Notes under the pieces: generated by a model
Seen by the model: the letters and a program-made list of their open reading frames with translations, nothing else
What the model was told of the DNA's origin: nothing
Database searches by the model: none
Virus record (IMG/VR): IMGVR_UViG_3300015371_000061
Coordinates: 1-48,558 of that record
Reading direction: 5' to 3' (one strand)
From: a virus
Length of the DNA stretch: 48,558 bases
In this document: positions 42,945-48,263 of the stretch, piece after piece
Position numbering within the stretch: the stretch's first letter is position 1
How the letters are laid out: each line of letters starts with the position of its first letter
Position numbers and translations under genes: made by a program

Positions 42945-43436
42945 ATGGAAAACCTTGATTTCTCAGGTGCGAAGGAAGTCAGTTTCGAGCCGCTGCCAAA
43001 CGGTACATACGAATGCACCGTGATGGAGGCAGAGATGGGCGAGACTTCCGGGTCGGGTAAGCTCGGCGTTCGTCCGAAGCTGATGCTCACGTTCAAGGTC
43101 ACAGACGACGAGGCCAACCCCGAAGAGTACCGCGATCGTCGCATCTGGACGCAGTACACGGTGCCACCAAAGGAGTTCGAGGGAGCACCGTACAAGGAGT
43201 ACGACTTGATGATGGGCAACATCTTTGGGTTCTTCAAGGCCCTTGGATACGAGGAGAAGGACGTCAGGAAGTGGAAGAAGCTCCCCAACCCTGACGACTA
43301 CCTCGGACGCCCATGTTCGGTCGTGGTGAAGTACGTGCCTGCCAAGGGCGAGTACGCCGCCAAGAACGAAGTGCGAACTGTGAAGCCGGCAGGGTCAGCA
43401 CCTGCGTCGGCAGCAACAGGGCTTGACGCACTGTAA
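42945..43436 (+). CDS. SSB-like protein (DUF669 type)
   Basis: 163 aa. Residues 1-140 are a beta-rich fold: EPLPNGTYECTVMEAEMGET, KLMLTFKVTDDE, FGFFKALGYEE, PCSVVVKYVPAKGEYAAKNE. The C-terminal tail is Ala/Ser-rich. This is the usual partner of Sak4-type ATPases and serves as single-strand binding protein. Strongly acidic overall. Followed by two hairpins and the tRNA-like element. Confidence 0.75.
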   Translation: MENLDFSGAKEVSFEPLPNGTYECTVMEAEMGETSGSGKLGVRPKLMLTFKVTDDEANPEEYRDRRIWTQYTVPPKEFEGAPYKEYDLMMGNIFGFFKALGYEEKDVRKWKKLPNPDDYLGRPCSVVVKYVPAKGEYAAKNEVRTVKPAGSAPASAATGLDAL

Positions 43437-43442
43437 GACCTG

Positions 43443-43511
43443 AGCCCGTCTGTCCGTGGGCGGGCTTAGTGCGCGGGGTGGGTGCGTGACGATACCGCGC
43501 TCACCCCGCGC
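43443..43511 (+). terminator. Two hairpins before tRNA-like element
   Basis: AGCCCG/CGGGCT (43443-43466), then GCGCGGGGTG/CACCCCGCGC (43471-43511) with a 21-nt loop that itself contains GGT/ACC. No T-run follows. Confidence 0.5.
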
Positions 43512-43516
43512 TGTAT

Positions 43517-43608
43517 GTCGTCATAGCTCAAGTGGTAGAGCACCACACTTTGCCTCTCCTGGTGCGGGTCAAAGTGTGAAGATGTGGGTTCGATCCCCAC
43601 TGACGGCC
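43517..43608 (+). tRNA. tRNA-like element with enlarged anticodon arm
   Basis: Acceptor stem GTCGTCA/TGACGGC (43517-43523, 43601-43607), D arm GCTC/GAGC (43526-43541), and T arm GTGGG-TTCGATC-CCCAC (43584-43600) are canonical. The anticodon arm is 35 nt (43544-43578) instead of 17: stem CACACTTTG/CAAAGTGTG and a 17-nt loop. Removing 43555-43570 would give a TTGCCAA loop with anticodon GCC, as in bacterial glycine tRNAs, but TGC and TTG are alternatives. CCA is not encoded. The primase ATG (43611) starts 2 nt after its end. Confidence 0.6.
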
Positions 43609-43610
43609 AT

Positions 43611-45773
43611 ATGGCAGTAACCATCAATACCGACAAGCTCAGAGCAGAGTTCTTCGAGAGCATCTTCGGATCACACGAAGGATACGTGTGCATAGCAGCA
43701 GCGAGGGCAACTAGCAGGCATTTCAACGAGACATATTTCGAGTGGCCCAAGGACATAGCCAAGATGATGAAGCACATCAACGAGGTTTCCGGCGGTCACA
43801 ACGTGTGGTTTTGTGCCCAACTTCTCGACGAGCCCAAGAGGGTCAAAGAGAACGTTGGGCTTTGTTATGCCTTGTGGGCAGATTTGGATACATGCGCTCC
43901 CACAGAGATTGTCCCACGTCCTCCAGTCGTACTCCAGTCGTCAGAAGGTCGATGGCAAGCGTTCTGGCCTTTGACCAGGGGTATCGAGCCGGTGATCGCT
44001 GAGGACTACTCACGCAGGATTGCATACGCCTACAAGGAGCACGGTGCAGACCAGTCGGGATGGGATCTAACACAGCTCCTACGTGTCCCGTTCACGTTCA
44101 ACTACAAGTACCCAGAGCATCCACAGGTCATCGTGGAGCTAGAGTTGGGAACGCAGTACGAGCCTAAGCTGTTCGCCGACAACTACGATCACGTACCCAA
44201 CTACAGCATCAATTGGGTAGAGCCACCGGAACGCTCGCTTAGTGCGGACACCATCCTCGCTGAGTATCGTACACGTCTAGAACAGTACATGATTGACATG
44301 TACACCAACGAGCCGGCCGAGGGCGCAGATTGGTCAGCCATCTTGTGGAAGTTTATGTCCTGCATGTTCGAGATTGGCATGAGCCCAGAAGAGGTCTATG
44401 CCGTATCTTCCACAGCAGCGTGCAACAAATTCATGCGAGATGGAAAGCCAGAACGTCTGTGGCCAGATGTGCTCAGGGCTCAGGCAGCATTTCAGGGTAC
44501 GCGACCTGTGCTGACAGTACAGGAGATGCCAGAAGTCACGATCGACAGAGATCTAGAGCGATCCTTCATCGAGGACTACGCGGATTGGGCTGGCACACTC
44601 ACGGACGCGCCACGTCAGTACCACGAGGCATCTGCATTCATCATCCTCTCGTCGTTGCTGGCATCATCGCTCGTGATTGAGACCAGCGTAGCCAATTTCA
44701 GAACCAACCTATGGGTGTGCATCCTTGGTGAGACGACACTCACGCGCAAGACTACAGCTATGCGTTTGGCAGTAAGACTCATCAACGAGGTGGATGAAAA
44801 CATTTTGCTCGCTACAACAGAGGGCTCAATTGAGGGCATCATGAGCGCGATGCAGCTCAGGCCCCACAAAGCTGCACTCTTTCACCGGGATGAAATCGCC
44901 GGCATGTTCAAGGCGACAGTACGCAAGGACTATCTCTCTGGCATGTTGGAGACATTCACCAAGATGTACGACGGAGATGACTTCAAGAGGGTTCTCCGTA
45001 AGGAAACCATCCACGTAAGAGAGCCGGTATTCATCTTCTTCGGTGGCGGCATCAAGGACGCCGTGCTAGGAGCACTCCAACAGGAACACCTAACCAGTGG
45101 CTTTGTACCACGGTTCTTGTGGGTCATAGGTGAAACCGCGATTGACGATCTGGCACCGCTCGGCCCAAAGCGCCAGCAATCTATGGAAGAGGAAAGTCAG
45201 ATCGTTGGCAGACTACGATCCCTATATCAGACGTACAACCAACCACAGGTAATCAAGATCGGTGGCGAGCCTGTCGAGGTTCCACAGAAGGTCGTAGCAG
45301 AGCTGACAGAACAGGCATGGGAGTTGTTCAACGATTTTCAGATGGACTTGCTCAAGTGGGCTCGAGGTCAGCAGCAGCACCACATCATTATGCCTGTCAT
45401 GTCACGCACGGCTGACAACTGCCTCAAGATGGCCGCGCTCATTTCTGCGTCCAGGCAAGACCCGTCTATTGACGGGCGCATCACCGTCACTGAGGAAGAC
45501 GTGGCTCACGCGGTTTACTTCGTACAGAATTGGGTTCCGTACACGATGGAGGTTGTGCCCAACGCCGGTGTCAGTGACGCCGAACAGCTCGTACAGCGAG
45601 TGTTGGCCGGCATCAATCGGGAGCCAGGAGTGTCAAGATCCAAGCTCATGCGATCGTACAAACTCACGGCTCGAGAAATGACAAGCATCACGGACACACT
45701 ACGTGAGCGCATGCTTATCAGGGTGACTAAGGACGGACGGCAGAGCAATTACTACCCAGCAGCATATGGATAG
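43611..45773 (+). CDS. Primase-helicase (PrimPol-type N-terminus, SF3-like helicase)
   Basis: The ATG at 43611 gives 720 aa; a GTG at 43584 inside the tRNA-like T arm is possible. The N-terminal half resembles archaeo-eukaryotic primases: LWADLDTC (Asp91, Asp93) and SSEGRWQAFWPL then SGWDLTQLLRVPFTFNYKY. The C-terminal half has a P-loop-like GETTLTRKT (373-381, Lys380) and HRDEIAGMF (Asp427, Glu428), as in DUF3987-type helicases, plus GGGIKDAVLGALQQEHLTSG. It would prime and unwind DNA ahead of the polymerase. The absence of a ribosome site before the ATG is odd. Confidence 0.75.
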   Translation: MAVTINTDKLRAEFFESIFGSHEGYVCIAAARATSRHFNETYFEWPKDIAKMMKHINEVSGGHNVWFCAQLLDEPKRVKENVGLCYALWADLDTCAPTEIVPRPPVVLQSSEGRWQAFWPLTRGIEPVIAEDYSRRIAYAYKEHGADQSGWDLTQLLRVPFTFNYKYPEHPQVIVELELGTQYEPKLFADNYDHVPNYSINWVEPPERSLSADTILAEYRTRLEQYMIDMYTNEPAEGADWSAILWKFMSCMFEIGMSPEEVYAVSSTAACNKFMRDGKPERLWPDVLRAQAAFQGTRPVLTVQEMPEVTIDRDLERSFIEDYADWAGTLTDAPRQYHEASAFIILSSLLASSLVIETSVANFRTNLWVCILGETTLTRKTTAMRLAVRLINEVDENILLATTEGSIEGIMSAMQLRPHKAALFHRDEIAGMFKATVRKDYLSGMLETFTKMYDGDDFKRVLRKETIHVREPVFIFFGGGIKDAVLGALQQEHLTSGFVPRFLWVIGETAIDDLAPLGPKRQQSMEEESQIVGRLRSLYQTYNQPQVIKIGGEPVEVPQKVVAELTEQAWELFNDFQMDLLKWARGQQQHHIIMPVMSRTADNCLKMAALISASRQDPSIDGRITVTEEDVAHAVYFVQNWVPYTMEVVPNAGVSDAEQLVQRVLAGINREPGVSRSKLMRSYKLTAREMTSITDTLRERMLIRVTKDGRQSNYYPAAYG

Positions 45774-45802: not shown

Positions 45803-45812
45803 TGTGGGGTTT
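45803..45812 (-). repeat. Dispersed motif site 8
   Basis: Core read on the minus strand (plus strand TGTGGGGTTT), context GGGAAAACCCCACAGCCC, in the gap just upstream of the DNA polymerase start. Confidence 0.65.
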
Positions 45813-45836
45813 TCCCTGCCGGGAGGCCGGAAGCCC

Positions 45837-48263
45837 GTGAGCGCCCCATCTGGCCCACGATCTGAGCCGGTCGCCAATGGCCGCCGACCGTCGCCCCAGG
45901 AGCGCGGTGCGCTGTGCGAGCTGTGCCCATTACAGGGGCGCAAGATGGCCGACACATGCGGCCCTACGAGCGCGTCATGGGCGCTCGTGTCACGCTCTCC
46001 GGGCAAGCATGATGTACGAAATGGTGAGCCATTCAGCGGCCCATCTGGTAGGATTGTCAACTACCTACTTGGCAAGAACGGCACACAACGCGAAGACGTC
46101 ATACTTACGAATGTAGTTCTCTGTCAGACAGACGACCCACCGAAACTTGCCATAGAATGCTGCTCAAAGAGACTGGAGAATGATCTACATGAAGTCGATA
46201 CGATATTGGCCGGGGGTAGTGAGGCGGTTCGTGCATTCCTCCACAAAGGGATCGAAAAGTCCCGAGGACTCCACCACACAGTCGAGTACGGAGAAAGAGA
46301 ACGTACCGTCGTCGCTACCTACAACCCCGCCTTCGCCCTCAGAGAAGCCGCCATCTTCCCCTCCATCAGGGATGACTTCCGAAGAGCGCAAAACCCGCCA
46401 CCACCATTCCAACCGCCGCGAGTCGAAGTAGTACGCACACTACCGGCGGCACGTAGAGCACTAAGGAGACTGTTAGATGAGCCAATTGTCGCCATCGACA
46501 CAGAGACTACAGGACGTGTTGTTGGCAGTAAACTCGTCTGTATTGGATTTGCTGCATCACCTGGAAACGCAGTTGTCATCGGACGAGAGATCTGCCAGAC
46601 CTGGCCCGCAGCCAAAGCATTACTTGTGGACTTCTTCAACCAATACAATGGTAGACAGCTCTGGCACAACGGGCAGTTTGACACCAAAATCCTCAAGTGG
46701 TTAGGAGTACCCGCCAAGGTAGACGAGGACACCCTGCTACTCTCATACGCTTGCGATGAGAGAAGCGAGGGCGTGCATGGACTGGACTATCTCACACAGA
46801 ACGAACTGGAGTGGCCGTATTACACACCGCCAGCAGTAGCAGAGGGGAAAACTAATGGCTTCAAGTGGGATCACAACGGTGAGCCCTTCTCCCAATGGGA
46901 CGAGCTATACACTTACAACGGATACGATTGTTGTGGCTCATATCAGCTCTACGGCATCCTCTACGACCGTGCAAGTGACGATGATGTACTTGGTCGCTAT
47001 CGTGAGGTACTCATTCCAGGTACGAACGCACTCGCCAAGGTAGAGGCACGTGGGATCTTACTTGACGTACCAAAGCTCGAGCACATCAGAGACGTTGAGG
47101 TAAAGCCTCAGCTAACAGAGATATCCATCAAGGCCGGCAAGATTGCCAACGAGCCCATCAACCTCAACAGCTACCAACAGTGTGGAGCGTTCCTGTACGA
47201 CAAGATGGGCGTCAAAGATCCAAAGCTCAACTATAGACCGAGCCAGGAGAAGCCAAAGGTCAGGAGTGTAGATGAGAAACACAGAGAGTGGATCGCAAAG
47301 AACGTCACTAACGAGACGGTTCTACGATTCGTTGCGTTCCTACATGAGTTCAAGAAGCTCGACAAGATCAGAGGAACGTACCTCGACGGACTCCTACCTT
47401 TTGTTGCGTCAGACGGACGGATACGGGGTGAACTGCTGTTATATGGAACTGAAACGTCCAGACTCAGCAGCCGTAGGCCCAACCTTCAGAATCAGCCCAG
47501 AACTACTGACGCAGATATTGAAAGAGGCGAAGGCTACGTCAACATCAGGCAGCTCTACATGGCAGATCCAGGTGGCATCGTTATCGCCGCCGACTATAGC
47601 CAGGTTGAACTCAGAACAGCTGCGGTACTATCAGGGGACGAATTCCTACTAACCATCTACTCGGAAGGGAAAGACCTGCACGATGAGATGGCCGACTTCC
47701 TCTTTGGCAAGAGCTTCACGCATGAACAGAGAGTTGCGGCGAAGGCCGCTAACTTTGGTTGTTTGTTTGGAATCCAAGGATGGTACTTTGGACAGCTCTT
47801 TGGGATACCAACAGACGAGGCAACCCGTATTATTGCACGTTGGTGGGATCGTGTCCCTCAACTCGCTGAGTGGGCACAGCATACAAGAACTGAGGGTAGA
47901 AAGAACGGATACGTCAGAACTGCATTTGGTCATAAGAGACGATTCCCTCTTATAACCGACGAGAACATAGACCATGTTCTCAAGGAGATGGTCAACACGC
48001 CCGTCCAGGGAACAGCCTCAGACTTCACGACCTGCGCCATCATAGACTTAGAGGAGGACAATGCTCTTGATCCTATCGGCGCTGGTATCGTCCTGGCTGT
48101 TCACGACAGCACTCTTGCTTTATCACATCGTAAGCACGCGAAGGAAGCTTGCGAGACTATCCGAGAATATATGGAGGCTCAACCGGCGAATAGACTCGGA
48201 TGGACGGATATCCCGTTCTCGGTAGAGGTCAAGACCGGGCCAGATTGGGGGCACGTGAAATGA
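45837..48263 (+). CDS. UDG-like / family A DNA polymerase fusion
   Basis: 808 aa from a GTG at 45837 with GGGAGG 10 nt upstream; a GTG at 45804 is possible. Residues 27-190 resemble family 4 uracil-DNA glycosylases: CELCPLQGR, EPFSGPSGRIVNYLL, ILTNVVLCQTDDPP and Cys108/109, so Cys27, 30, 96 and 108/109 could hold a 4Fe-4S cluster. Residues 210-390 are a 3'-5' exonuclease: AIDTETTG (Asp221, Glu223), HNGQFDTKIL, YNGYDCCGSY. Residues 400-808 are the polymerase: ADYSQVELR (Asp586), RVAAKAANFGCLFG (about 631), VHDST (Asp757; usual Glu is Ser758). This replicates the phage genome; the glycosylase-like part may scan for uracil. Confidence 0.9.
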   Translation: MSAPSGPRSEPVANGRRPSPQERGALCELCPLQGRKMADTCGPTSASWALVSRSPGKHDVRNGEPFSGPSGRIVNYLLGKNGTQREDVILTNVVLCQTDDPPKLAIECCSKRLENDLHEVDTILAGGSEAVRAFLHKGIEKSRGLHHTVEYGERERTVVATYNPAFALREAAIFPSIRDDFRRAQNPPPPFQPPRVEVVRTLPAARRALRRLLDEPIVAIDTETTGRVVGSKLVCIGFAASPGNAVVIGREICQTWPAAKALLVDFFNQYNGRQLWHNGQFDTKILKWLGVPAKVDEDTLLLSYACDERSEGVHGLDYLTQNELEWPYYTPPAVAEGKTNGFKWDHNGEPFSQWDELYTYNGYDCCGSYQLYGILYDRASDDDVLGRYREVLIPGTNALAKVEARGILLDVPKLEHIRDVEVKPQLTEISIKAGKIANEPINLNSYQQCGAFLYDKMGVKDPKLNYRPSQEKPKVRSVDEKHREWIAKNVTNETVLRFVAFLHEFKKLDKIRGTYLDGLLPFVASDGRIRGELLLYGTETSRLSSRRPNLQNQPRTTDADIERGEGYVNIRQLYMADPGGIVIAADYSQVELRTAAVLSGDEFLLTIYSEGKDLHDEMADFLFGKSFTHEQRVAAKAANFGCLFGIQGWYFGQLFGIPTDEATRIIARWWDRVPQLAEWAQHTRTEGRKNGYVRTAFGHKRRFPLITDENIDHVLKEMVNTPVQGTASDFTTCAIIDLEEDNALDPIGAGIVLAVHDSTLALSHRKHAKEACETIREYMEAQPANRLGWTDIPFSVEVKTGPDWGHVK

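Follow-up and report, generated by a model that had tools for sequence, protein, structure and literature searches.

The window analysed here is the full 48,558 nt of a virus contig (IMG/VR record IMGVR_UViG_3300015371_000061). Toward its end, an SSB-like DUF669 gene, a tRNA-like element, a DNA primase and a DNA polymerase A follow one another in this order. The polymerase (45804-48263) has an N-terminal uracil-DNA-glycosylase-like domain and a 3′-5′ exonuclease domain. The features around the element are as follows.

42945-43436, plus strand: upstream gene for an SSB-like DUF669 protein
43471-43511, plus strand: hairpin rich in GC, immediately before the element, GCGCGGGGTGGGTGCG...CGCGCTCACCCCGCGC, from the sequence
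43517-43608, plus strand: tRNA-like element (tRNA mimic), acceptor stem through discriminator C43608, from Rfam RF00005 and the fold
43517-43523, plus strand: acceptor stem, 5′ strand GTCGTCA, with 7 of 7 positions paired to 43601-43607
43526-43541, plus strand: D arm GCTC-AAGTGGTA-GAGC, preceded by TA, from sequence and fold
43544-43578, plus strand: enlarged anticodon arm, from sequence and fold; 9-bp stem formed by CACACTTTG (43544-43552) and CAAAGTGTG (43570-43578), 17-nt loop CCTCTCCTGGTGCGGGT (43553-43569)
43584-43600, plus strand: T arm GTGGG-TTCGATC-CCCAC, from the sequence; same position in 10/80 primase clusters
43601-43608, plus strand: acceptor stem, 3′ strand TGACGGC (43601-43607), and discriminator C43608, from the sequence
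43609-43610, plus strand: 2-nt spacer AT, with cleavage predicted between 43608 and 43609 from the spacer pattern in relatives
43611-45773, plus strand: DNA primase (PHROG 10514, DUF3987 domain), start codon ATG43611

The Rfam tRNA model RF00005 matches 43517-43608 on the plus strand with 50.4 bits, well past the gathering score of 29 (E = 6e-8 over the whole window), so the likeness is unlikely to arise by chance, as the initial annotation had argued. This is the sole above-cut-off Rfam match within the 48.6-kb phage contig. All tRNA hallmarks other than the anticodon arm are present, again as first described: the acceptor stem, D arm and T arm are canonical, and the variable region reads AAGAT. 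In place of the 5-bp stem and 7-nt anticodon-presenting loop of a tRNA, both the sequence and the predicted fold (−35.9 kcal/mol, z = −2.5) bear out the 9-bp stem and 17-nt loop reported earlier. If a canonical one-base position 26 is imposed, the first anticodon-stem pair becomes a C-A mismatch and the stem moves by one. No bulge-helix-bulge motif is visible by eye or in the predicted fold of the element, where the stem is one continuous 9-bp helix, in line with the earlier reading, and the window element encodes no CCA. The covariance-model search that had been proposed as a check detects the element; ARAGORN calls no tRNA at 43517-43608.

The primase start codon had been placed two bases past the acceptor stem; it lies three bases past the stem and two past the discriminator. 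No Shine-Dalgarno sequence precedes ATG43611, unlike a number of other window genes, which have good ones. In a simple scan, the surroundings of the element showed neither a sigma-70-type promoter nor a T-tract terminator. The 2 nt that separate element and ATG cannot accommodate a promoter, so that any primase transcript begun upstream would carry the element.

The nearest named relatives of the primase (23-28% identity) belong to phages of Curtobacterium, Streptomyces, Arthrobacter, Clavibacter and Stenotrophomonas, and the terminase is closest to those of Arthrobacter and Microbacterium phages; the host is likely an actinobacterium. DNA similarity searches against the phage collection returned no relative of the locus, the element alone matched generic tRNA pieces only, and single-protein and exact-pattern scans yielded no close relatives. 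No RNA-processing enzyme was found among the window ORFs scanned. tRNA genes recur between the SSB-like or neighbouring gene and the primase in phages Yappy, Thunderclap, Jojan60 and Pan2, where the primase keeps a leader of its own. The same interval, from SSB-like gene to primase, also holds unannotated degenerate tRNA-like elements in Curtobacterium phage Yappy (L002, 2270-2367) and Clavibacter phage CN1A (L006, 2342-2475). Stenotrophomonas virus Jojan60 (L007, 2380-2462) carries an unannotated 83-nt tmRNA-like RNA (RF00023, 61.8 bits) with a CCA end and without room for a tag-coding part, located 32 nt before a primase gene that has its own Shine-Dalgarno sequence.

Two alignment-based scans of IMG/VR, one of them with an alignment of three primases, recovered 134 primase loci, the window included, which form a non-redundant set of 80 clusters at 90% amino-acid identity. 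The search for the same element in relatives, suggested in the initial annotation, was successful: in 10 of the 80 clusters, again counting the window, a T arm, a 7-nt acceptor strand, a discriminator and 1-3 nt stand directly before the primase ATG. Chance would give 0.13 such clusters (P about 2e-16, a value to be read with the caveat that members of the same clade are not independent), and 118 decoy offset classes never gave more than 2. The spacers are AT in the window, TT in L269, TA in L272, L297 and L381, T in L280 and L375, TAG in L367, TTT in L379 and TTC in L380. L269, L272, L297 and L375 offer no in-frame start near the junction other than the abutting ATG, and in L367 this ATG comes immediately after a stop codon; in the window and L280 an in-frame GTG or TTG is also present 27 nt upstream. 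A full 7-pair acceptor partner exists in 9/10 elements, the 5′ end of the remaining one (L297) being cut off by its contig.

On the primase tree, the ten clusters occupy three separate places: the window alone, a group of L269, L272 and L280, and a group of L297, L367, L375, L379, L380 and L381. A single origin with many losses is a possible account of this distribution. The idea of a broken tRNA unique to this phage was rejected, since 10/80 clusters in three tree places keep the acceptor stem, the T arm and the spacing. In a fourth clade (L301, L371, L376 and L377), a small ORF sits immediately before the primase, and only TT separates its ATG from the discriminator A of a canonical tRNA-Leu(taa). 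L376 retains, at 1816-1843, a remnant tRNA 3′ half (T arm, CACCGGC and A), behind which come TT and a small-ORF ATG; this ORF is related to the small ORF that follows tRNA-Leu in L301, and the remnant showed no 5′ acceptor strand. The element is absent from 70/80 primase clusters. In about half of the mimic-less clusters, many of them without a Shine-Dalgarno sequence, a hairpin of 11 bp or more lies close to the start codon; examples just upstream of the primase are found in L252, L283, L244, L317 and L292. The median Shine-Dalgarno duplex energy is −0.7 kcal/mol (weak or none) at the abutting starts versus −3.8 kcal/mol in the other clusters, and an encoded CCA is absent from all ten abutting elements and from the tRNA-Leu cases.

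Across the nine complete elements, 107/108 acceptor and T-arm positions are paired, although the high acceptor pairing is partly by construction, because the acceptor partner was searched for. Each acceptor position shows two to four pair types among these nine. The remainder of the element varies, with total lengths from 68 to 112 nt. The D arm is canonical in the window and reduced in L272; L280 and most members of the L367-L381 group have a 7-8 bp arm in its place. The arm preceding the T arm is nonstandard throughout, and its length, sequence and loop differ between relatives. RF00005 gives these relatives' elements 12-20 bits or does not detect them, and no Rfam match to them exceeds the cut-off. 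Loop C runs of 4-6 occur in L269, L367, L375, L379, L380 and L381. The window element carries CCTCTCC, its longest C run being 2, and C runs do not exceed 3 in the window, L272 or L280; a conserved C-rich loop, found in only part of the relatives, was therefore rejected as a defining feature.

The spacing is not a general habit of ATGs abutting tRNAs, an explanation rejected because the next ORF behind other tRNAs on the same phage contigs is mostly 12-40 nt or more away; several of these ORFs have a clear Shine-Dalgarno sequence. For 695 distinct acceptor and T-arm ends from all fetched loci, we also determined the distance to the first long-ORF ATG. The distribution peaks at 2 nt (14 cases) and 3 nt (6), compared with about three per bin elsewhere, and within the 1-3 nt class every ORF of several hundred residues encodes a primase.

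Enlarged anticodon arms are not confined to this locus. Many tRNA-like phage elements in IMG/VR combine an intact acceptor stem, D arm and T arm with an enlarged or irregular anticodon arm (L009-L127; for example L024, L027, L064, L104, L112 and L010), often far from other tRNAs. Between L027 and L104, a 7-bp arm changes on both sides, and the L010 element ends 2 nt before the ATG of a 57-aa ORF. This wider class, though real and diverse, was set aside as an explanation: in most members no ATG abuts the element, and the class accounts for the odd arm only in a general way. Another form, which recurs in viruses and bacterial genomes, resembles tRNA-Ile(UAU) and combines an ordinary anticodon arm with a long variable arm (loci include L043, L058, L072, L093, L129 and L136).

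RNase Z and RNase P read the parts conserved among the elements, the acceptor/T-arm stack and its junction, and need the variable parts least. The presence of a mimic 1-3 bases from the primase start on at least three branches suggests that host tRNA-cutting enzymes trim the primase message. We consider the element to be probably a tRNA mimic that marks the transcript for RNA processing, much as tRNA punctuation does in mitochondria and t-elements do in plants. The acceptor/T-arm stack would be the part recognised by host RNase Z, whose cut would fall just behind the discriminator, and RNase P would perhaps cut on the 5′ side. The anticodon arm would then be dispensable for processing and free to vary, which would explain its odd form. 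The downstream product would begin 5′-AU-AUG and be translated as a near-leaderless primase mRNA. Because the uncut start codon lies against a stable fold and lacks a Shine-Dalgarno sequence, cutting would turn primase translation on. The almost leaderless primase mRNA predicted in the initial annotation would be the most likely key to function.

Several properties of the candidate enzymes and hosts bear on this proposal. Bacterial RNase Z cuts right after the discriminator of CCA-less tRNA precursors (PMC8549757), and for the Bacillus subtilis enzyme a U within 2 nt downstream stimulates cutting about 200-fold (PMC10100781). A U lies no more than 2 nt after the discriminator in all 10 abutting clusters and in the tRNA-Leu cases. 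Leaderless mRNAs are efficiently translated in mycobacteria; the start codon in the reporters used stood exactly at the 5′ end (PMC4633059), and 1-3 extra bases 5′ of the AUG may weaken leaderless initiation. Not all actinobacteria have an obvious RNase Z, P. acnes reportedly lacking one (PMC3848588), so host identity matters for the processing model. The canonical D arm and high tRNA score of the window element exceed what processing strictly needs, which counts against the processing reading. We regard as evenly balanced the broader proposal that phages, probably actinobacterial, repeatedly evolved tRNA mimics that exploit host tRNA 3′ processing to obtain a near-leaderless primase mRNA. On the same reading, primase translation in such phages would depend on RNase Z cutting and proceed without a Shine-Dalgarno sequence, a consequence that we hold to be about as likely to be right as wrong.

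The stable fold right at a start codon without a Shine-Dalgarno sequence would also suit a cis-acting riboregulator that stays uncut and controls primase translation by keeping ribosomes off, by drawing them in or as the target of a tRNA-binding protein. The long hairpins close to the start in many other clusters make a general rule of structured primase starts possible. A plain hairpin would suffice for such a role, however, and the full acceptor/T-arm stack with its 1-3 nt spacing on separate branches would be left unexplained, so we consider this unlikely. A trans-acting small RNA on a tRNA scaffold is rather improbable; in it, C-rich, anti-Shine-Dalgarno-like loops would bind mRNAs or ribosomes, or the RNA would act as a nuclease decoy. 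The C runs in the loops of six relatives and the CCTCTCC of the window fit this idea, as does phage T4 rnaC, a stable RNA with a tRNA-like 3′ end, and phages are known to escape tRNA-cleaving defences by means of their tRNAs (PMC10264068, PMC11555353). Yet the loop sequences are not conserved, the runs stay short in L272, L280 and the window, and an sRNA role alone does not explain the constant distance to the primase ATG. A decoy for anticodon nucleases, one of three options first put forward, is not supported, there being no anticodon or anticodon-loop feature common to the relatives that such a nuclease would recognise. The C-rich loops of several relatives nevertheless leave room for an excised RNA that may also act in trans.

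Since several related phages have tRNA genes between the SSB-like gene and the primase, relics are to be expected there, and a decayed tRNA gene in a compact genome could have its 3′ end beside the primase by chance. Pairing that stays intact despite unrelated sequences, spacing held at 1-3 nt across separate clades and distances that peak at 2-3 nt are hard to reconcile with a neutral relic; together with the tRNA controls, the spacing makes it quite improbable. We give least credence, and very little, to the idea that the element is a working tRNA, whether interrupted by a mini-intron or decoding in a novel form. The tRNA score is high, and removal of about 18-20 nt could yield a 5-bp, 7-nt arm, but there is no bulge-helix-bulge, the insert is too short for a group I intron, and no bacterial splicing route for it is known. 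Moreover, the inner regions of the relatives are unrelated and often longer, with poor D arms and tRNA scores of 12-20 bits or none. The earlier option of a novel tRNA form fares poorly for a similar reason, the relatives' elements having even less tRNA core and no CCA. Of the three options first listed, the comparison with relatives most favours a degenerate tRNA retained as a processing signal: the acceptor stem, T arm and spacing persist, and the anticodon arm, D arm and sequence are what varies.

If the processing reading is correct, the locus represents tRNA punctuation in a bacterial virus, with a near-leaderless mRNA obtained from tRNA processing and not from promoter placement, as opposed to mycobacterial leaderless mRNAs, which were ascribed to de novo transcription (PMC4633059). 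It would offer a function for seemingly useless phage tRNA-like elements that standard tRNA finders miss, and the junction would provide a clean, testable site for RNase Z action on viral mRNAs. The open-licence papers searched contained no description of this kind of element in a phage.

Mitochondria have both tRNA punctuation and t-elements (PMC8003010), and the phage element shares their tRNA-like fold at a coding-sequence boundary, here 2 nt from the primase ATG. As in mitochondrial tRNA punctuation, a tRNA structure adjoins a coding sequence and its excision would leave an mRNA nearly without a leader; the mitochondrial tRNAs, however, are real translating tRNAs, whereas the phage element has no usable anticodon arm and its cleavage is predicted. 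Plant mitochondrial t-elements are likewise tRNA-like structures that set mRNA ends for tRNA-processing enzymes (PMC8003010), but they are organellar and experimentally mapped, while the phage elements stand 1-3 nt before a start codon and their processing is predicted. The stable species 1 RNA of phage T4 (rnaC) likewise has a T arm and a tRNA-like 3′ end but no tRNA core; it differs in lying within a tRNA cluster, in its longer inner region and in having no start codon joined to it. The actinobacterial 6C sRNA resembles several relatives in its C-rich hairpin loops and lacks their tRNA-like ends. The 6C model gave no above-cut-off match for the window or the relatives tested, and the window element does not have the two hairpins with loops of about six Cs that define 6C. 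Finally, actinobacterial leaderless mRNAs share with the predicted primase message an end few bases from the AUG and the lack of a Shine-Dalgarno sequence, but their ends have been explained by transcription that begins at the start codon (PMC4633059), whereas the end proposed here would be made by processing.
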